The notes under the pieces: generated by a model
What the model was told of the DNA's origin: nothing
Databases searched by the model: none
Seen by the model: the letters and a program-made list of their open reading frames with translations, nothing else
Part shown: positions 1 through 10,000 of the stretch, piece by piece
Layout of the letters: every line of letters starts with the position of its first letter
Numbering within the stretch: the first letter of the stretch is position 1
Translations under genes and position numbers: made by a program
Source: Methanospirillum hungatei
GTDB taxonomy: Archaea; Halobacteriota; Methanomicrobia; Methanomicrobiales; Methanospirillaceae
NCBI RefSeq assembly: GCF_020216685.1
Contig: NZ_JAIWNS010000036.1
Coordinates: 1-10,000 of the forward strand
Direction: 5' to 3'
Length of the DNA stretch: 10,000 nucleotides

Positions 1-3000
1 AGTCTTTTCACAGGATGAATCAGGAACACTCCGACAGGTACCTGATAGCGAATTACGTCTGGATCTTCCGTCAGGCATATCCGAATTTCTATCAATCTCT
101 CCCATAACAGCAAGAGGGGTCCTGAATGCAGCCATAACACAGACCGGTCCAACTGATCTGAAAGAGATTGAGTTCTCCCTCCATGCTTCGGTTCATGAGG
201 ATGCCGTACCCCCACAGACGATCACGGTAGGTTTCAACGCTTCTGCATCCGGATCAATCGAGACACGATTCGAGAGTGACAAAAATACCATCTCTCCCTT
301 TCTCATAACTGATCGTGCGATCCTTTTGGTCAGGCTCAGCTCATACACCCTTAAAGCACCGATCTGGACCTTTGAACGGGCACAACCGGATGGATGGCTT
401 GATGAACCCAGCACTCCGGTTGATTATGGTGACGGATGGACTGCGGTTGCCCTAAAGGCCACCCCTCCGGACCCGGAGTACACCGGTGATCCCCCGGAAT
501 CAGAAGATATCATGATCACCGCAACTTTGGGGAATACCCGTTCAGGGCCCGTCTCTGTCCCGGTGCTGCTCCTGAAAAGGCCAAAAATCGAGGCAGATAC
601 CTATCAGGTCACGTTGGTAAAAGGAATAAATGAGACTGTGAAAGTTCAGGTCCGGATTGAGCATGGCGGGTCTGATTCATGGGTCTTTGCAATTGATCCT
701 GAAAAAACACTCAACCTTGTCAATGCAACCATTACTGTTCTGGATGACACCCATGCAGAGATAACCGTGACAGAACAGGATTCCCTTGATGAGCATACTG
801 AGGGGATGTATGACCAGGAGACTTTCATAATCACCGCATCACCCCGTTCAGGAGAACTCTCCTTTCCTCTGGAATGCCATATAACCGTCACCATCTCAAA
901 AGAGGGCCTATTCATAGATACCATCGCCAGACGGAAGGATACCGGAATGTATCATGTCCCGGTGCCGAATTCACAGATGGATTCTACTGCTCTTCTGGAT
1001 TTTTATTACCTGGTCCTCACCGAAGATAACCAGATAATTTCTCATACTTCTGCCATCACCGACCCAAACCCTCTGGATTTTACTATCATGGAGGATGAAA
1101 AGACCACTTCCTATAATGCAGCCAAGGGATCTGGTCTTACCTTTGTATCCTCCGGAGTAAGGCAACTCAATACCCCTTCCGCGGTCTATTCAGTCTCGAT
1201 GACCCGTCCGATACCCTTTGACGGAACCCCGATTCCAGTCAGGTGCCGTGCAACGGTAAAAAACCATGCAGGTTCTGAAGAGACCGGATATTGTGACTTC
1301 ATGCTTGCCCTTGAGACCGATAATGTCAATCCGGGGAGTGCCAGCTGGGAGATTGAAGTCCGCCGGTGTGAGCGTATCATCAACACCATGGCACCAGAGC
1401 AGGCCAGACCAGAACTTCATGCCCTCCTCTCCAAACGAAAACAGGTCCTTGGCGTTGAAGGGCTCGTGCAGTTCAGATGGATGATCTATAACCGGGCGTA
1501 CCGGCTCTGTCTTGAGGAGGCACAGGATTACCTGGATGCAGCAAACCGGTATGACCAGATCATCGAGGTCCTGGAATGGATACAGTGGGCCGGAGATCTC
1601 GCCTTTAATGCTGCTCTTGGAACGGTGGTCGGCCCATTTGGGGCGATCGCAGTCAATCATATAAAGGGGAAGATCCTGGGTGCTCTTGAAGCCTACCAGA
1701 TGGGAACTCCTCCGGAGGCTTTTATCAGTTTCAATGATATCAAGGGCATAACCGAAGGAAAACTTATCGATCCGGATCAACTGGCAAAACTCACCGGTGA
1801 CCGGAGATGGCTTGCATGGGGACTGTTTGCCGGGTATCACTTCTTAAAAACCCTGGTCCATGGAGAACCACCGAACAACACAGTGGTAGGAGCAGCCAAG
1901 GAGACCGCCCGCCAGCTGAGGGATGAGGTTATTGCAGACTGGCTGAATAGTACGGTAAAAACCCATGGAGCAAAACCGGTTTCTGACATCATCAGGGGTG
2001 GGAAAGGAGAGCCCGACGGAAAGAAGAAACCAGATGTGACTCAGAAAAAACCCGTACCGGAGGGAAAACCAGGAGATGAAAACGCAAAGGAAGAAGGCAA
2101 AAAGAAGCCGGATGAAGTGAAGGAGAAAGAGGAAACCGGAAAAGAGAAGGAAGGACCTGAAGGGAAGGATAAGCCGGATGAGAAGAAACCCGGTGATGAA
2201 AAGCCTAAAGACGGGAAAAAGACAGCAGATGAGAAATTAAAGGAAGCAACCTCCGAATATGATCGGTTGAAATCTGAATATGATGCAATAAAGGACAAAT
2301 CATCAAAAGAAGCAAAAGAGGCCGCGAAAAGACGTGATAATGCACGACTGGCTATGGAGAAGGCAAAGGCAGAATCTCTGGCAGATAAGAACATCGCCGA
2401 TTCTCAAAAGGAAGTGGATGCACGGGAGAAGATTAAGTTCGAAGAAGGGAGGAGGGAAGGCCGGAACAAGGTCAATGAGCTCAAAGATGCCTGGGAGAAT
2501 CTTCAGAAGAATCCGGATGATCCTGTTGCGAAAAAACGATTCTCCGAGGTCTGTGAGAAGGTGCAAAAGGACAAGCATGCCATGCATGTCCTCAATGATG
2601 AACCCCACATACTTGATGGAAAAACCAGAAACCCTGGTGAAGAAAGTCCGCTCCGACGAGACTTCAATGAACACTGGAGACAGACCTATGACAATGTGGA
2701 CCGGAGGGTAAAGCAGCGAATCGCAGACCAGCTGAATCAGAACCTGAAACCAGGTGAGAGACCATATAGTCCGGATGATATTGAGATTGCAAAGATCACC
2801 AATGTGAAAGATGCAGCACCCAGAACTCCAGACCAGGAGAGCACGAAATCCACCTTTGACCGTGATGTCACCTACAGGAAACCAAAGCAGCAGATGAGGA
2901 TAGATCCCCATACCGGAAAGGCAGTCATAGACATCAAAACGGGCCAGCCGGTGTATGATCCTGTCATCGATCCCAAGACCGGAAAACCGGAGATGGAGGA

Positions 3001-3769
3001 TGTTAAAAGCACCAATGAACCGATCAGGGATGCGAAGGGACATACACGGACGGAGAACGGAAAACTCGTGGAACAGGAGGGAACCGGCTCACGGGATATC
3101 TACAACCAGGAATTTTACCGCGAGCGACATGGAGAGTACCCGTATAAGACTGATGCAAGCGGAAGAGTTATCACGGGGCCTGACGGAAAACCGGTCATCG
3201 ATCAGGCAAAATGCAATGAATATGCTGAACACATGGATCAGACAGTTACTGACCGGTTCCATACCGATGCATATGGGGGAGGAAAGGAGGATATCGGCCC
3301 GGCAACACGGGGAGACATGAAAGGCAAACCCTATAAGGATCTTGAAGCGACAACCCGCACCATGGAGACAAAGGTATATGAATGGTATGACCGGGCCGAA
3401 AAGGCAACTAAATCAGGAGATCCTAAAGCAGCCGGGGCGTACAAGGAGGAAGGAATGCGACAACTGACCAAACAGTTTAAAAACCAGATTGAACCGGTTG
3501 TGAATAAATACAACGAACTTGCCGGGTATCCGGATCCTCCCATTGCACGAATACCGGAGAATGTCCGTGCCGGTGTTGAGATCATGAACCGGGTCGGAAA
3601 AGATGGATTTACTCCTGCAGATGCCGAAGCAGCACTTGCCCATATGGGCGAATCCCCCCGAAGCATCATTCAGAAGATGTCAGGCATCCTTGAATCAGGT
3701 CAGAAACATATGTCAGCAGGTCAAAAACAGCAGTTATTCGAATATCTGAAGACCCTTCCCGAAGGCTAG
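1..3769 (+). CDS. Very large modular protein, 5' end outside window (Ig-like region, hydrophobic helices, charged linker, coiled coil, unique C-terminal domain)
   Basis: The frame is open from the first bases to the TAG at 3767, giving at least 1255 residues; the true start lies to the left. A TTG at 326 could be read as a start, but the frame upstream is uninterrupted and protein-like, so it is internal. Visible parts, numbered from the window edge: about 1-480, beta-rich alternating sequence like stacked Ig-like domains; about 490-640, helical, with a glycine/alanine-rich hydrophobic stretch (about 531-551, GDLAFNAALGTVVGPFGAIA) and a second near 605-620; about 666-746, a Lys/Glu/Pro/Gly-rich linker with many KKP/DEKK units; about 746-840, a heptad-like coiled coil; about 867-1255, a charged C-terminal domain. 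I do not recognise the family. The order (long stalk, membrane-active-looking helices, linker, distinct tail) resembles large secreted or polymorphic-toxin-like proteins, but no catalytic motif is evident. It precedes two zinc-ribbon genes, nine bases from the first, probably one operon. Confidence 0.85.
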   Translation, partial: VFSQDESGTLRQVPDSELRLDLPSGISEFLSISPITARGVLNAAITQTGPTDLKEIEFSLHASVHEDAVPPQTITVGFNASASGSIETRFESDKNTISPFLITDRAILLVRLSSYTLKAPIWTFERAQPDGWLDEPSTPVDYGDGWTAVALKATPPDPEYTGDPPESEDIMITATLGNTRSGPVSVPVLLLKRPKIEADTYQVTLVKGINETVKVQVRIEHGGSDSWVFAIDPEKTLNLVNATITVLDDTHAEITVTEQDSLDEHTEGMYDQETFIITASPRSGELSFPLECHITVTISKEGLFIDTIARRKDTGMYHVPVPNSQMDSTALLDFYYLVLTEDNQIISHTSAITDPNPLDFTIMEDEKTTSYNAAKGSGLTFVSSGVRQLNTPSAVYSVSMTRPIPFDGTPIPVRCRATVKNHAGSEETGYCDFMLALETDNVNPGSASWEIEVRRCERIINTMAPEQARPELHALLSKRKQVLGVEGLVQFRWMIYNRAYRLCLEEAQDYLDAANRYDQIIEVLEWIQWAGDLAFNAALGTVVGPFGAIAVNHIKGKILGALEAYQMGTPPEAFISFNDIKGITEGKLIDPDQLAKLTGDRRWLAWGLFAGYHFLKTLVHGEPPNNTVVGAAKETARQLRDEVIADWLNSTVKTHGAKPVSDIIRGGKGEPDGKKKPDVTQKKPVPEGKPGDENAKEEGKKKPDEVKEKEETGKEKEGPEGKDKPDEKKPGDEKPKDGKKTADEKLKEATSEYDRLKSEYDAIKDKSSKEAKEAAKRRDNARLAMEKAKAESLADKNIADSQKEVDAREKIKFEEGRREGRNKVNELKDAWENLQKNPDDPVAKKRFSEVCEKVQKDKHAMHVLNDEPHILDGKTRNPGEESPLRRDFNEHWRQTYDNVDRRVKQRIADQLNQNLKPGERPYSPDDIEIAKITNVKDAAPRTPDQESTKSTFDRDVTYRKPKQQMRIDPHTGKAVIDIKTGQPVYDPVIDPKTGKPEMEDVKSTNEPIRDAKGHTRTENGKLVEQEGTGSRDIYNQEFYRERHGEYPYKTDASGRVITGPDGKPVIDQAKCNEYAEHMDQTVTDRFHTDAYGGGKEDIGPATRGDMKGKPYKDLEATTRTMETKVYEWYDRAEKATKSGDPKAAGAYKEEGMRQLTKQFKNQIEPVVNKYNELAGYPDPPIARIPENVRAGVEIMNRVGKDGFTPADAEAALAHMGESPRSIIQKMSGILESGQKHMSAGQKQQLFEYLKTLPEG
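2903..3199 (+). repeat. Degenerate D-x-x-T-G-K-P type amino-acid repeats inside the large protein
   Basis: Within the C-terminal part of the large protein, short units of the form DPxTGKP recur: DPHTGKAV, DIKTGQPV and DPKTGKPE at 2903-2989, then GPDGKPV near 3175-3195. The DNA also repeats in part (accggaaa-type blocks). Such units are typical of flexible or beta-hairpin linkers in large extracellular bacterial proteins. Here they separate two predicted helical parts of the C-terminal domain. Confidence 0.5.
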
Positions 3770-3778
3770 AGGCACTCT

Positions 3779-4576
3779 ATGACTACAAAAAAATGTCCGG
3801 CATGCGGTCAGGATAATTCACAAGGAGCGAAGTTCTGCAGATCCTGTGGTACTCTGCTCCAGAACGGATCACAAGGTGTTAATCCTGATGTTGGCAAAGG
3901 CTTCGGTGATTCCTTCCAAAAAGCGACTGAGATCCTTGATACCGTCGCATCCACCGCTTCAAAAATAGAATCAACGGTGACAAAGGCTGCACAGATTGGG
4001 ACTGCTGCCCAGGAGATCTCGCAGGTAATTGTCCGTCCACCGGCTGAATGGCAGGTTGTCGTCGGAGACATCCTTCCTGCAGCAGGTGAGAAGATCATGG
4101 AACAGGGAGTGAAAACGGCAGAACAGAAAGTTCAGCAGGTGGTACGTCAGAAGATTACAGACGTTCTTTCTGACATCCCTCTCTCCGGAAAACGTGAATC
4201 TGATCGTTTAAATAATCTCCCTGAAACCTTTGTTCCAAGTGAAACTTCCCAAAAATCAAGTACACACTTTCTCTGCCCATCCTGTAAACAACCGGTAAAT
4301 CCTGGAGTAAAATTTTGTAAAACGTGCGGAGCCCGGATACCTGACAAAAAACCCTCATCTTCAGTCCAGACCAGCAGGGTAGATCCAAATCTCTCCGTCT
4401 GTACTTACTGTAAAGCGCCACTCTCCCCAGAAGAGAAGTTTTGCAGGCACTGTGGAAAACCGGCAAGGCCATCTGCTCAAACTGACAGGAAAAACTCTGC
4501 CCCGGTCTGTCCATCATGCGGGAAGGATCTGAAACAGGGAGCAAAATTCTGCAGACATTGTGGAACAAAGATATGA
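3779..4576 (+). CDS. Protein with four zinc ribbons and a central helical region
   Basis: A 265-residue protein. Four zinc ribbons all have the spacing C-x2-C-x10-C-x2-C: Cys6/9/20/23, 166/169/180/183, 208/211/222/225 and 244/247/258/261. All share a K/A-F-C-x-x-C-G ending (KFCRSCG, KFCKTCG, KFCRHCG twice), so they arose by duplication. Between ribbons 1 and 2 (about 38-135) lies an Ala/Thr/Gln-rich amphipathic helical stretch with no Cys. This is the common archaeal and bacterial double-zinc-ribbon type; the metal is structural, and the partner may be protein or nucleic acid. ATG 3779 follows an AGAGG at 3768-3772 that overlaps the stop of the upstream gene, so translation is probably coupled. 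No membrane helix or signal peptide is seen. The exact role is unknown; the operon position suggests work with the large protein before it and the membrane zinc-ribbon protein after it. Confidence 0.85.
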   Translation: MTTKKCPACGQDNSQGAKFCRSCGTLLQNGSQGVNPDVGKGFGDSFQKATEILDTVASTASKIESTVTKAAQIGTAAQEISQVIVRPPAEWQVVVGDILPAAGEKIMEQGVKTAEQKVQQVVRQKITDVLSDIPLSGKRESDRLNNLPETFVPSETSQKSSTHFLCPSCKQPVNPGVKFCKTCGARIPDKKPSSSVQTSRVDPNLSVCTYCKAPLSPEEKFCRHCGKPARPSAQTDRKNSAPVCPSCGKDLKQGAKFCRHCGTKI

Positions 4577-4595
4577 ACGGATATCATCAGAACAC

Positions 4596-4603
4596 AGGTG
4601 ATC
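4596..4603 (+). promoter_or_regulatory. Strong Shine-Dalgarno that sets the start of the zinc-ribbon membrane protein
   Basis: AGGTGATC is an exact complement of the archaeal 16S rRNA 3' end (GATCACCT). Its GGTG core ends 5 bases before ATG 4606. This favours 4606 over the in-frame ATG at 4573, which overlaps the upstream stop as ATGA but has no comparable site in front. Confidence 0.7.
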
Positions 4604-4605
4604 AT

Positions 4606-5262
4606 ATGACTGCATGTCCTCATTGTGGATCAGATCTCCCTCCTGACAGTGCATTCTGCCAGGAGTGTGGAAAACCGGTATCAATTACAGAACAATCATC
4701 ATCAGACTCGATGATCTGGACCGCACAGATACCGGTGATTACCAGTTCGGTTGTCGTCAAACAACTGGGAATGGCTCTGGGTGCAGGGTTTCTTGTGGTA
4801 TTTGTCATCATCCTGTTCGCCCATCCCGGAGCTGCACTCTCTGTCGCACCCATCCTGTTTGTCATCTGGGCCTTCTTATTCGGACTGTCCCTGTTTATCG
4901 CCGGAATATACCAGAAAGCAACGAAAGGGGGGCCTGATGCAGTCTTCGCCGTGACCCCTGAAGGAATCGGCTATGCTGCGGGGGAGACTATCAAAAAGAT
5001 CAACCGGCTTACTGCCATCGGATCTGTTGCCGGCGGGTCACTCACCGGCCTTGGAGGCAGCATGATAAACATCTCCCGTGAGATGGATTCAATTCCCTGG
5101 GATGAGATAAGGTCCATATCATACCAGAACCGGGAGCGGACCATCGTTGTGTACAGAAAAATTCTGATCTCTCCTATCATGCTGGCATGCACGAGAGAGA
5201 ATTTCAACCAGGTAAAAGAGCTGATATCCCGGTATGCACCGCCCGGAACGATCAAAGGATAA
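4606..5262 (+). CDS. Membrane protein: N-terminal zinc ribbon, two transmembrane helices, PH-like domain
   Basis: A 218-residue protein from ATG 4606. Order: zinc ribbon with Cys4/7/18/21 (CPHCG...CQECG, same spacing as in the preceding gene); a Ser-rich linker; two hydrophobic helices at about 54-72 and 78-101; then a soluble domain at about 112-212. That domain starts FAVTPEGIGY and contains IPWDEIRSI (163-171), the pattern of bacterial/archaeal PH-like domains next to membrane helices, and ends in a helix (FNQVKELISRYAPPG). The product is probably an integral membrane protein with both soluble parts on the same face. The 29-base gap to the upstream gene and shared ribbon type make it the third gene of the unit. 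An alternative start at 4573 would add 11 residues but lacks a good ribosome site. Specific function is unknown; a membrane scaffold or anchor for zinc-ribbon partners is a guess. It ends three bases from the stop of the convergent small gene. Confidence 0.85.
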   Translation: MTACPHCGSDLPPDSAFCQECGKPVSITEQSSSDSMIWTAQIPVITSSVVVKQLGMALGAGFLVVFVIILFAHPGAALSVAPILFVIWAFLFGLSLFIAGIYQKATKGGPDAVFAVTPEGIGYAAGETIKKINRLTAIGSVAGGSLTGLGGSMINISREMDSIPWDEIRSISYQNRERTIVVYRKILISPIMLACTRENFNQVKELISRYAPPGTIKG

Positions 5263-5517: not shown

Positions 5518-6390
5518 TTATCTCACAATCTTGGTGATTGGTATCTCCAGGATATCCTCTGCCCCGGCAGCCTTCAATTCAGGTATCAGAGTATTTACCT
5601 TACTCTTCAGGACCACGGTCTCAAGGCTGAAATAATCGATACCATGAAGTTTTGCGACGGTTGGCTTCTTTAATGCCGGAAGGTTTGCAACGATTGAATC
5701 AAGTGATGCTGCCGGGACATTCATCGAGATGAGTACTTTATTCCTGGCATCGATAACGCCCATAAGGAGGGTTACTATCTCTTCTATCTCCTTTCTCTTG
5801 ACCGGATCCTCAAAACTTGCGATATTTGCAATGATGGTCGTGTATGACTCCATGATCTGCCCGATGATCTTCAGACCGTTCTTCCGAAGGGTCGTTCCGG
5901 TCTCAGTCAGGTCAACAACCACATCCATAAGGTCAGGAACCTTTGCTTCACTGGCACCATAGGACGGAAAAAGTCGGACAGGAATGTTTAATTTTTCAAA
6001 AAAGTCCTTGGTCAATTTAGGATATTCGGTAGTAATCCGGCTGTCCGGGCGAATTTCACTGACGGTTGAGATAGGCTCACTCTGATGGACGGCGACTACA
6101 ATTTTGACAATACCTGGCCCTGTTTTGCTGTAGTTAAGTTGTGCCACCTCTTTTACCTGTGCTCCGGATTCATGGATCCAGTCAAGACCTGATATCCCCA
6201 TATCGAAATATCCCATCTCAATATAGGTCGGTATCTCCTGGGGCCGTAATATTTTGACCTTTCCTATCCGTGCATCATTGATCTGCGGATTGTAATCACG
6301 GTCAGTTCTCCTGACCTCAAGGTCGGCTTCTTTAAAGAGCTGGAGTGTCTGTTCTTCAAGGCTCCCTTTTGGGAGTGCGATGTTAATCAT
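5518..6390 (-). CDS. hisG: ATP phosphoribosyltransferase, long form (HisG_L), histidine step 1
   Basis: A 290-residue protein, the usual length of the long HisG form, which carries its own C-terminal ACT-like regulatory domain and does not need HisZ. It joins ATP and PRPP to give phosphoribosyl-ATP, the committed and histidine-inhibited step, in the cytoplasm. Diagnostic parts: N-terminus INIALPKGSLEEQTLQLF; GYFDMGISGLDW (60-71); the PRPP-binding stretch DVVVDLTETGTTL (156-168); C-terminal regulatory domain about 214-290. ATG 6390 was chosen because family members begin at this point. The frame extends to an ATG at 6447, but the extra 19 residues (rich in Cys, His, Ser) are not protein-family-like. 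No Shine-Dalgarno precedes 6390; a TATA-like box about 25 bases upstream fits a leaderless mRNA. It is divergent from hisI, with no other his genes between. Confidence 0.95.
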   Translation of the reverse strand: MINIALPKGSLEEQTLQLFKEADLEVRRTDRDYNPQINDARIGKVKILRPQEIPTYIEMGYFDMGISGLDWIHESGAQVKEVAQLNYSKTGPGIVKIVVAVHQSEPISTVSEIRPDSRITTEYPKLTKDFFEKLNIPVRLFPSYGASEAKVPDLMDVVVDLTETGTTLRKNGLKIIGQIMESYTTIIANIASFEDPVKRKEIEEIVTLLMGVIDARNKVLISMNVPAASLDSIVANLPALKKPTVAKLHGIDYFSLETVVLKSKVNTLIPELKAAGAEDILEIPITKIVR

Positions 6391-6408
6391 AGAACAATAG
6401 AAGGAGTG

Positions 6409-6420
6409 ATATGAATTAAA
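6409..6420 (-). promoter_or_regulatory. Candidate TATA box for hisG
   Basis: On the minus strand the sequence is TTTAATTCATAT, centred about 25 bases before the chosen hisG start at 6390. This would place the transcription start at or within a base or two of the ATG, giving a leaderless message. That agrees with the lack of a ribosome-binding site and argues against the longer reading frame starting at 6447. Confidence 0.4.
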
Positions 6421-6617
6421 CCCTGACGGTTTGCATCTGTGTTCCATCTATCCCTAAAAAATCCTGAAACATTATCGAAAATTTTTTCTCCAATGATTTT
6501 CCGATTGTCTGATCGCTCCATATTGCATGGGAATGAGAAGAGAAACGCTGCCGCCATTGAAGTAGTGCACTCTTTGATATTCCTCCCTGAAGATTTTTAG
6601 GTTACTGGCTATGAAAG

Positions 6618-6720: not shown

Positions 6721-6782
6721 CCTCATCTGATCAAACTGTACGAGTATACTTCTTATTCGTGTACCAGAGAGATGGAAATACC

Positions 6783-7151
6783 ATGATTACGATTAATTTT
6801 GACGAAAAGGGATTGGTTCCGGTTATTGCGCAGGATGCCACAACAAAAGATGTACTGATGCTTGCATATGCCAATAAGGAGGCTGTGGATCTGACCCAGT
6901 CAACCGGATATGCCCACTACTACAGCAGGAGCAGGAATAAACTCTGGAAGAAAGGAGAGGAATCCGGACATCTCCAGAAGGTTCATGAGATCCTGGTTGA
7001 TTGTGATGAGGATGCGGTCATCTACCTCGTGGATCAGCTCACCGCAGCGTGTCATACAGGATACCGGTCATGCTTTTACCGAAGGCTTGACGGGACGGTC
7101 TCCGGAGAGCGGATGTTTGACCCTAAAGAGGTTTACAAGAAAAAAGAATAA
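6783..7151 (+). CDS. hisI: Phosphoribosyl-AMP cyclohydrolase (HisI), histidine step 3
   Basis: A 122-residue cytoplasmic enzyme that opens the adenine ring of phosphoribosyl-AMP in histidine synthesis. The family signature is complete: W55-[14 protein letters not shown] with Asp73, Cys74, Asp75 and Asp77 (metal ligands), ACHTG with Cys90 and His91, and SCFYR with Cys97. The three Cys are the expected zinc ligands at the dimer interface. It is a stand-alone cyclohydrolase with no fused HisE (phosphoribosyl-ATP pyrophosphatase) domain, which is usual in archaea. Start ATG 6783 gives [18 protein letters not shown], the normal N-terminus; an in-frame GTG at 6759 would add eight unconserved residues. 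A T-run just past the stop (7152-7156) may end the transcript. hisG is the divergent neighbour; hisE and the other his genes are not in the window. Confidence 0.95.
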
Positions 7152-7667
7152 TTTTTACGGTTAATGAATAAAAGGGGTCATCAGCAATCCCTCAATTTTT
7201 AACAATTATGACCTGCATTGGCGATACATTTCTTCCAATACGGCAATACCCCTGATTTGAACCTTGTCAGATGCTTTCACAGAATCTCTGGTGAATGTTT
7301 TTGCAATGAGCAGATAGTGAATATCACGAAATTCATGATGATATGAAAGAAAAACGACACTTTTTCAGAAGATTTGAATAGACTTTTTCTGCATTCACTC
7401 ATGTCCTGCCATTTCAACTCACAAAATTTCTGTATAAGCCACATTTGGATTTACGGAATAATACCGAAATGCTTCAGGGACTGAAAATCTATCAGGAAGA
7501 GCGAACAGAGATAATCCTTACATATTCATGGTTCCATTATTCCGAATGATTATATCCGATTTTTGCATGAATATCTTCGTGAGGGTGAGAATATCTCAGT
7601 TTTTTCTGATTGATACATGGCGAATCATGAGGAGACATTTTCAGTCATCAGGATCAATAGAAATACG
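7152..7667. other. Stretch of about 500 bases without an identifiable gene; possible decayed coding remnants
   Basis: No complete gene, RNA gene or repeat array is seen. Some stretches read like old coding sequence. On the minus strand, 7206 to about 7360 is open and contains FRDIHYLLIAKTF and RGIAVLEEMYRQC. On the plus strand, 7382-7549 is open and contains YKPHLDLRNNTEMLQGL; a second frame from about 7522 to 7613 contains NDYIRFLHEYLREGEN, as if one gene had been broken by a frameshift near 7520-7545. None has a convincing start, and I cannot assign a family. The position between hisI and a pseudogene fits a decaying accessory region. Confidence 0.4.
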
Positions 7668-8004
7668 ATGAGGTTTTTCAACACCGCCGGACCGGTCAAC
7701 TGTGAGAAACATTACTGTCTTCCTCCTCTACCCGATTTGACCTCCCAGATATACTCACTCTCATCAGTCATGAGAAGTATTTTGTCCTGCATGCACCAGA
7801 CAGACCGGGAAGACCTCATGCATGCTTGCTTTGCGTGATTATCTGAACCATGAAGGCAGGTATGTTGCAATTTATATGAATGTAGAAACCGCCCAGACTG
7901 CCAGAAGTGATGTTGGGAGAGGAATTAAAGCGATAATAAGCGAATTTGCGTTTCAGGCAGACCTGACTATACCGGAAGAGTATCACCAATACCCACAAAG
8001 GTAA
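7668..8004 (+). pseudogene. Broken and truncated AAA-type ATPase (P-loop) gene
   Basis: Three reading frames in succession give one protein. 7668-7732 encodes MRFFNTAGPV...HYCLPPL; 7733-7798 encodes RFDLPDILTLISHEKYFVLHAP; 7801-8001 encodes QTGKTSCMLALRDYL...DVGRGIKAIISEFAF. Joined, this is the N-terminus of a well-known archaeal/bacterial ATPase family with FNTAGPV, HY-x-x-PPL-x-RFDL and the Walker A stretch YFVLHAPRQTGKT. Two single-base deletions broke it: one at about 7731-7733 and one at 7799-7800, where the Walker A Arg codon is reduced to GA. Only about 112 residues remain before TAA 8002, while family members usually run several hundred residues with Walker B and a C-terminal winged-helix part. 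Thus the C-terminal part is missing. It cannot make a working ATPase. An in-frame ATG at 7617 upstream of MRFF is probably not used. Confidence 0.8.
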
Positions 8005-8094: not shown

Positions 8095-10000
8095 ATGATT
8101 CCACCTGATATTACCCGTGATGACATCCTTTTGGCATTGAAAGAGATTGATACAGAAGGTGAACCTGACTATAGGGAATCAAAAGTCTTTTCTTTAATCT
8201 ATCAAAATCGATTATATTCTCCAAAATATGTTCTGTCAATAGTTACCAGAATAAAAACCGGGAAAGAACTACCCAGTAAGGATTTTGATGCAAGAACCGC
8301 CAAGAATTTTTTATTAGATTATAATTTTCCGGTATTGCCGAAAAAGAATCTGGAAAACGCAGTTACCACGCTCAAATCAACATTTTCGAATAAAGACCGG
8401 TATGTTGAGTTAGAGAATGTAATTAAATCCCGTGATGAAGTCATTACGAAATATTCTTCTGTCTTTTCTCAGGAACATATCAATGATATTACCCCTGAAG
8501 AACTCATCGACTTTACGGAGTTCAAAAATAATCACCACTGGACTGGACTTACCCGATCAAAAAGTAAGTATCTAACCAACTTTTCAGGAGTTAGAAAAAT
8601 ACTCCAGACTCTGTTGAATGAAGACATCCCTATCGTTGATCGTTTTCAAAAAATTGAAATGATATCCGAAGATGAAGGGGTAAAAGGTCTTGGAAAAGGA
8701 ATTCTTACTGCCATTCTGCATGTGACACATCCAGATAGGTATGGGGTGTGGAACAAAACTTCAGAGAATGGTCTGAAAGAGTTGGATATCTGGCCGGAAT
8801 TTAGATCCAAAGCAACAGAGGGTGAAAAGTATTTCGTGATTAATGAACTTTTAAACTACCTCTCCGTTCAGGTGGGCGTAGACTTATGGACACTTGATGC
8901 TCTCTGGTGGAGAATTGATTCAACACGACCGGTATCAATACGATATTGGAAAGTAGCTCCGGGAAGAGATGCAATGTATTGGTCCCAATGGAAAGAAAAA
9001 AACACAATTTCCATCTATTGGTCCAAGTTACTGGATACAACGGGACCCGAAATCCTAACCATGCCCCACGAACAGATAATCTCTGCCTTCCAGGAGGTAT
9101 ATCCTGAAAAAGAACGTGCTACAGCCACAAGGCAAATCTCAAACTTTATCCATGAAATGAAACCTGGTGATAAAATAGTAATTAACAGAGGAAAGTCTTC
9201 TATTCTTGCCTACGGCCAGGTAGAGTCTGAAGCTTTTTTTGAGTCAAATGATGTCAGTAATATATATCGGAAAGTCATCTGGGAAAAAACAGATCTTGAA
9301 ACCCCGATTCCAGATTCAATTAAGGGGAAATTCATGCAGACCGTGGTTGAACTGACACCTGATGAATATAATCTCCTCACCGGTTCAATGGAGAATTATT
9401 GGGGAATCTTACCTTCAGATGGTAAAAATAAACTTGGATCAGACCTCTATTACTGGGATTCCTGGAGAGAAAATGGTATAGTAACTACCAGTTACTGGAA
9501 GGATTTTATTAAAGCACACGGCGAATCCCTCCTTGCATATTCAGAGCAGGAATATCTCAAGGCTTTTCGCGATTTTTATCCTAATAAAGAACATTCGGAC
9601 ATGATTTGGAAGTTTATTCATCAGATGCATATCGGGGATAAAATTCTTTTAAACCGGGGAAAAAAATCCATAATTGCCTTTGGTGAGGTCATTTCTGAAC
9701 CATTCCTGGATGAGTCGGGCGACACACTCGTCAGGAAAGTAAAATGGACATCATTACCTGAAGAAATACCAATTCCGTTGAGACTAATAGGTAAATTTTG
9801 CAGATATATCTTTCCAATAACGCCAGAAGAATATGAACAAATTTTTCATCCAGAGCCTATATCTGAAGAATTCGATCGTCTTGACAAATTACTCATGAAA
9901 AAGGGACAGGTCATTCTCTATGGACCACCGGGGACCGGGAAGACGTACCACGCAAAAAATTACATCGACTACAAGATAAAACACTCCCCAAAGGTACATC
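8095..10000 (+). CDS. McrB-type modification-dependent restriction protein with two EVE-like domains, 3' end outside window
   Basis: Open from ATG 8095 (stop TGA 8050 is the last in-frame stop upstream) to the right edge, 635 codons. Domains: about 5-85, a small head (YSPKYVLSIVTRIKTGKELP), like the N-terminal head of ScoMcrA-type proteins; about 113-273, a helical domain with HHWTGLTR, GLGKGILTAILHVTHPDRYG and LWTLDALWW; about 282-430 and 450-586, two EVE/PUA-like domains, each with F-I-H-x-M-x-x-GDKI-x-x-NRGK-x-SI-x-A; about 592 on, the AAA+ motor with Walker A GPPGTGKT at 610-617. McrB proteins read modified cytosines in DNA through their N-terminal domains and use GTP to drive the McrC nuclease. 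EVE domains are modified-base readers in this family. McrC is expected downstream, outside the window. Sampled 60-base lines had 28-43% GC by hand count, against 48% in one line of the large gene at the left, suggesting acquisition by transfer. The Walker B and MNTxDRS motifs lie outside and remain unchecked. Confidence 0.88.
   Translation, partial: MIPPDITRDDILLALKEIDTEGEPDYRESKVFSLIYQNRLYSPKYVLSIVTRIKTGKELPSKDFDARTAKNFLLDYNFPVLPKKNLENAVTTLKSTFSNKDRYVELENVIKSRDEVITKYSSVFSQEHINDITPEELIDFTEFKNNHHWTGLTRSKSKYLTNFSGVRKILQTLLNEDIPIVDRFQKIEMISEDEGVKGLGKGILTAILHVTHPDRYGVWNKTSENGLKELDIWPEFRSKATEGEKYFVINELLNYLSVQVGVDLWTLDALWWRIDSTRPVSIRYWKVAPGRDAMYWSQWKEKNTISIYWSKLLDTTGPEILTMPHEQIISAFQEVYPEKERATATRQISNFIHEMKPGDKIVINRGKSSILAYGQVESEAFFESNDVSNIYRKVIWEKTDLETPIPDSIKGKFMQTVVELTPDEYNLLTGSMENYWGILPSDGKNKLGSDLYYWDSWRENGIVTTSYWKDFIKAHGESLLAYSEQEYLKAFRDFYPNKEHSDMIWKFIHQMHIGDKILLNRGKKSIIAFGEVISEPFLDESGDTLVRKVKWTSLPEEIPIPLRLIGKFCRYIFPITPEEYEQIFHPEPISEEFDRLDKLLMKKGQVILYGPPGTGKTYHAKNYIDYKIKHSPKVH
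8938..9852 (+). repeat. Tandem duplication of an EVE/PUA-like domain within the McrB-type protein
   Basis: Copy 1 spans about 8938-9384 and copy 2 about 9442-9852. Matching blocks are W-x-x-W near the start (YWSQWKEK and YWDSWREN), SIYWSKL against TSYWKDF, AFQEVYPEKE against AFRDFYPNKE, FIHEMKPGDKIVINRGKSSI against FIHQMHIGDKILLNRGKKSI, and TPDEYNLL against TPEEYEQI near the end. They are similar in protein but diverged in DNA, so the duplication is old. Confidence 0.8.

Follow-up and report, generated by a model that had tools for sequence, protein, structure and literature searches.

The mcrB-like gene and its McrC partner

The 10,000-nucleotide stretch of Methanospirillum hungatei DNA analysed here (the window, contig C287) ends inside a gene for McrB, the motor half of the Type IV restriction system McrBC, as its motifs and its McrC neighbour establish. 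The frame opens with an ATG at position 8095 and is uninterrupted as far as the window reaches, a length of 635 residues that includes GPPGTGKT at residues 610-617, and another contig of the same genome (3.0 Mb, 300 contigs, about 90% complete), C288, carries the same mcrB frame onward for 448 residues, which gives a joined chain of 1084 amino acids. The features are listed below, with positions in the window unless C288 (locus L010) is named.

8095..10000, + strand: 5' part of the mcrB-like gene, 635 codons and one further base, completed by C288 bases 1-1349 (open frame, in-frame continuation, alignment with the public protein P0002)
8098..8376, + strand: small N-terminal head, residues 2-94, weakly ScoMcrA-head-like (profile matches, 5zmm, model confidence)
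8416..8913, + strand: helical domain, residues 108-273, putative HhH-GPD/OGG DNA-glycosylase fold with Asn at the catalytic-Asp spacing
8941..9381, + strand: EVE-A, residues 283-429, EVE/YTH-like
9394..9846, + strand: EVE-B, residues 434-584, EVE/YTH-like, tandem paralogue of EVE-A
9862..10000, + strand: start of the AAA+ GTPase-type motor, from residue 590
9922..9945, + strand: Walker A, GPPGTGKT, residues 610-617 (sequence)
C288 bases 21-395: third EVE domain (EVE-C), residues 643-767
C288 bases 717-740: Walker B
C288 bases 885-905: NxxD signature
C288 bases 1346-2662: mcrC
C288 bases 2623-3582, strand of mcrC: ADP-ribosylglycohydrolase gene (PF03747)

In all likelihood a record boundary divides a single gene between C287 and C288, since the frame continues and the alignment of the joined chain with P0002 (1083 columns, 67% identity) has a single gap, placed away from the seam. 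The idea that the reconstructed chain is an artefact of contig joining is hardly credible: C287 and C288 are indeed separate records of exactly 10,000 bases apiece, but, besides the end-to-end alignment, the homologue P0003 extends across this region, and the EVE insert also occurs within single records in 84 further collected chains.

The rightward extension into C288 bore out the McrB-type motor proposed in a preliminary description of the window, as Walker A is followed in the joined chain by Walker B and the NxxD signature, the motif set of the McrB GTPases. The downstream McrC that it had anticipated is also present: mcrC adjoins mcrB, whose stop overlaps the mcrC start (ATGA), and encodes 438 amino acids matching PF10117 (E 1.2e-60) with an intact PD-(D/E)xK motif, D...DTK, kept in all six aligned McrCs, this one included. 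By analogy with the McrBC family, the system would be expected to use GTP, form a hexamer, cleave DNA and defend against phages.

EVE domains in the chain and among its relatives

The joined chain contains three EVE domains that are probable readers of modified bases, one of them buried in the motor. EVE-A and EVE-B are tandem paralogues showing an EVE/YTH fold in the models, which supports the two N-terminal EVE-like domains of the preliminary description; EVE-C, one more than it had claimed, is set into the motor after the P-loop helix and ahead of the strand that follows, and is recognised by its Pfam EVE score as well as by its fold. A sequence comparison of EVE-C with EVE-A and EVE-B returned no match, and its kinship to them is, in the models, one of fold. 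When the window piece alone was used, Pfam and single-sequence PDB searches brought up only the P-loop and a sub-threshold EVE, and PADLOC placed PDC-S02 over EVE-A.

A total of 235 sequences was gathered by similarity to the window protein and to the insert, a sample biased towards the insert. We counted the 124 chains with both Walker patterns and left out the 111 without a usable Walker A and B pattern, including P0001, the window fragment. An EVE insert occurs in 85 of these 124 McrB-like chains, which, given the bias, is not a natural frequency. Of N-terminal EVE-A/B copies, 41 chains have none, 75 have one and 8 have two, and only the window chain and P0002 (2/124) combine the EVE insert and the EVE pair with both head and helical domain; P0003, which comes from a 2.8-kb record and is missing its N-terminal end, may be a third. 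Within the same taxonomic order, 28 of 232 genomes, that of the window included, match the C288 part, and in 12 of the 28 the alignment starts at or before query residue 36 and covers most of the insert. We labelled the 134 motor cores of a quick-method tree by insert length (>100 residues, a few non-EVE inserts included); the label must change 15 times or more, with no fewer than 6 changes forced by starred branches, against a mean of 32.8 after shuffling. The tree includes 21 of the 50 locus frames and leaves out 11 rows that lacked the FHPS pattern. By this sequence evidence the motor insert is clustered on the tree, but has been gained or lost repeatedly. A separate list of spacings contains some genes twice. 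The motor core of one same-order genome (G226, locus L045) is identical to that of P0008 from Methanoculleus, which assigns the order to Methanomicrobiales.

It is possible, if not the likelier outcome, that the extra modules are mostly structural, a single EVE doing the reading while the head, the glycosylase-like domain and the other EVEs hold DNA non-specifically or stabilise the ring. The free variation of module sets just described, the coming and going of the motor insert and the paralogy of EVE-A and EVE-B would all suit such an arrangement. It fits less well with the finding that the window chain and the two homologues nearest to it all retain EVE-A and EVE-B, each in a group of its own, or with the Asn held at one position of the helical fold in most of its family (see below). 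We judge it unlikely that the system cuts host or plasmid DNA instead of serving phage defence, or that it targets RNA as predicted for the CoCoNuTs, a branch of McrBC systems described in PMC11090510, even though YTH relatives of EVE bind RNA marks, judging by the titles of structure entries. The joined chain is by its motif not a CoCoNuT, having NxxD and not the NxD of the definition given in that source, and neither mcrC nor the gene after it gave a Pfam match to HEPN or another RNase family (neither comparison extended to coiled coils); McrC, moreover, retains D...DTK.

The helical domain, the head and the flanking genes

The glycosylase-like helical domain of the preliminary description found support at the level of fold. 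Foldseek matched it to 3knt (3knt_D, probability 1.00, E 0.0037), 3fhf and 3n0u, and the homologue P0010, which has the domain, matches the OGG family PF21790 (E 2e-6; 28.0 bits versus a cut-off of 27). Counting against the assignment to the HhH-GPD fold, P0001 gave no PF21790 match, and a PF00730 search of the own genome picked out three other genes and not the mcrB-like one. A helical-domain profile compared with the host's HhH-GPD proteins yielded nothing significant, so that the case for a glycosylase is built on the Foldseek result, the PF21790 match in one homologue and the motif spacing.

HhH-GPD-type glycosylases have a catalytic Asp and, in the lyases, a Lys. For OGG1, the K249-D268 pair is named in the text of PMC13160076. 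We numbered these positions relative to the leading Gly of the GxG hairpin, placing them by spacing and not by superposition. In the host HhH-GPD proteins, +22 or +23 is acidic in 3/3 cases and +4 is Lys in 1/3. In the helical family (86 motif-matched rows; of 131 rows, 45 in which one or both motif patterns were missing were set aside, and the window chain entered twice, as P0001 and as the joined chain), position +22 is Asn in 81 rows, the window chain among them, and Asp in one (P0002), with another spacing in four, while Lys at +4 occurs in none. With Asn at the catalytic-Asp spacing and no Lys at +4, the domain looks catalytically dead, a glycosylase fold suited to binding and not to excision. 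An active base-excision enzyme fused to the restriction motor, in the manner of a Brig-like defence, is accordingly a quite unlikely alternative. The fold match to MjOgg and the Asp of P0002 would suit it, and glycosylases attacking hypermodified phage bases exist, Brig1 being an example (PMC11078745); yet the residue counts oppose it, with the reservation that Lys is found in only one of the three host proteins, and Brig1 belongs to the uracil-glycosylase superfamily (same source), which leaves a likeness of role only.

In many proteins some 350 amino acids long, the same helical domain is found ahead of a NucS-like nuclease, an arrangement that fits a portable recognition module. The profile of 32 NucS-like proteins sharing the domain found no glycosylase among its five PDB matches at E<=5; its best rows were acidic low-complexity matches, and NucS itself stood at E 0.21. 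As a separate observation, these proteins (P0013 and following) are candidate standalone modification-dependent nucleases.

The head, counted among the readers in the preliminary description, could not be upheld as one. Its profile matches 12 collected rows, two of them the window chain, and the region has pLDDT blocks of 76-96, but its likeness to ScoMcrA is weak (5zmm residues 4-89, E 0.18, second of four matches) and would make it at most a distant relative. In the text of PMC6224610, moreover, the ScoMcrA head is a small domain of unknown function and sulfur is bound by another domain, from which it follows that a reading of phosphorothioate DNA does not carry over. ScoMcrA is described there with head, sulfur-binding, SRA-like and HNH domains; Pfam scans (E<=0.05) of P0002 and of both pieces of the joined chain, window and C288, found no HNH family, and the joined chain is, by its sequence, not a ScoMcrA. 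A Foldseek match of the window model to 5zmm (probability 0.09 over 560 columns) was not used as evidence. The precomputed entry PF26345 lies on the heads of seven homologues.

Downstream, the ADP-ribosylglycohydrolase gene (PF03747, E 9e-84) overlaps the mcrC end by 40 bases; it was considered as a third component of the system and rejected, no relative being present in 10 other loci (open reading frames of >=100 amino acids), 6 of which show a McrC. Beyond the operon, C288 carries a PF09820 AAA-ATPase_like gene (3753-5057, minus strand). The part of the window upstream of mcrB contains hisI (6759-7151) and hisG (5518-6447, minus strand), and two short same-strand reading frames (7617-8004) between hisI and mcrB, without a Pfam match at E<=1, are possibly a decayed gene. 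At the far end of the window, a 1255-residue frame with an open 5' end (2-3769; no Pfam match at E<=0.05) is followed by zinc-ribbon frames at 3779-4576 and 4516-5262. The window holds no tRNA, and no Rfam family reached its gathering score in the window or in locus L010. A scan of genome contigs with the window protein returned no relative; the same genome has a second mcrBC (C150, 1071-5313; L081) with a helical domain and an EVE insert and no EVE-A/B match.

Proposed working and relation to known systems

Taken together, the locus most probably encodes an McrB motor with stacked EVE readers and a glycosylase-fold domain which, with the McrC nuclease as partner, acts on modified foreign DNA. 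McrB rings are described as hydrolysing GTP, moving DNA and activating McrC once a reader meets a modified base (PMC7680126, PMC11090510). In the present system, the three EVE domains, of the PUA superfamily, and the glycosylase-fold domain without catalytic Asp would probably hold modified bases of foreign DNA, likely through base flipping, and the GTP-driven rings would move or remodel the DNA and switch on the PD-(D/E)xK nuclease McrC to cut it. A reader beside the nucleotide site could tie recognition to hydrolysis, and several readers could demand several marks; that the stack recognises several or bulky marks, as the preliminary description proposed, is a conjecture. It may also be, on weaker grounds, that every module is a reader of some mark and that DNA beside the GTP site is sensed by the insert. 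A more elaborate scheme is doubtful: the EVE insert after Walker A would sense a flipped modified base and gate GTP hydrolysis, the dead glycosylase and the EVE pair would be separate readers, and the ring would fire only on several or hypermodified bases, as a multi-mark AND gate whose modules are swapped among methanogens.

As to the marks, members of the EVE-like fold class are reported to target 5mC, 5hmC or 6mA (PMC12707154). No C5-methyltransferase was found in the approximately 90% complete host genome (10 of 14 controls were positive), whereas adenine/N4 methyltransferase families gave six matches for PF02384 and four for PF01555. Targets with adenine or N4 marks would therefore be constrained, if still possible, and modified cytosine may tentatively be regarded as the safer target for the host system. 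For Dnd phosphorothioation, a single DndC match (33.7 versus a cut-off of 290.4 bits) is uninformative, as 5 of the 14 controls gave the same.

Several observations weigh against the action on modified foreign DNA outlined here, or against the domains on which it is built. EVE-A and EVE-B remain below the Pfam EVE cut-off (21 versus 23 bits, best stretch 347-389), and their identification combines models with sub-threshold profiles; the full-length structure model is that of the homologue P0002 and not of the window chain; and the window model had no Foldseek match at E<=0.001 (best 1.5e-3). The helical-domain Foldseek rows have E values of 0.004-0.02, target TM-scores of 0.35-0.45 and rmsd of 9-12. 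At this level of genome completeness, the missing C5-methyltransferase is weak evidence. Finally, in a same-genus genome (G007:C42, locus L042, about 1700-2340) the mcrB head start runs straight into the C-terminal part of mcrC, the remaining mcrB and mcrC sequence being gone, for which a deletion or an assembly collapse could account; with a mere remnant kept, the system looks dispensable.

Known systems share parts of this layout. E. coli K-12 McrBC has Walker A/B, NxxD and the mcrB-mcrC order in common with it, but has one DUF3578 reader, for 5mC/5hmC (PMC11090510), and the YTH-McrB of Thermococcus gammatolerans (6ut3-6ut8) has one reader, for 6mA (PMC7680126), with 135 residues from Walker A Lys221 to Walker B Asp356 against about 260 here. 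The EVE-HNH endonuclease VcaM4I (6yex) couples a lone EVE to an HNH nuclease without a motor, and the 8-oxoguanine DNA glycosylases MjOgg and TmOgg share the fold of the helical domain, which differs in its Asn at the catalytic-Asp spacing and its want of Lys at the lyase position. The EVE-McrB fusions have the same McrB GTPase with EVE specificity domains. The preliminary description had called the architecture unusual: the stacked modules are real, but the chain is less isolated than this implied, since no other architecture is as common among EVE defence proteins as EVE-McrB, in which additional domains are often found (Bell et al. 2020, PMC7641849), and since insertions into the McrB GTPase domain, likely specificity domains, are frequent in the McrBC census of PMC11090510. 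The available text of these two papers, figures and supplements aside, mentions no three-EVE chain, glycosylase-fold domain or EVE insert after Walker A, and our literature searches, within the same limits, found neither this domain combination nor a glycosylase-fold reader in McrB described.

The general remark on McrB specificity inserts thus acquires a concrete example with a structure model, an EVE placed in the loop that follows the P-loop helix. This insert recurs among relatives and appears to have been repeatedly gained or lost. A glycosylase fold without the catalytic Asp would be a probable modified-base reader, common to this McrB and to a NucS-like nuclease family. Together, the EVE insert and the glycosylase fold make the coupling of base recognition to GTP hydrolysis in McrB directly testable, and such modules may provide reagents for modified-base detection.
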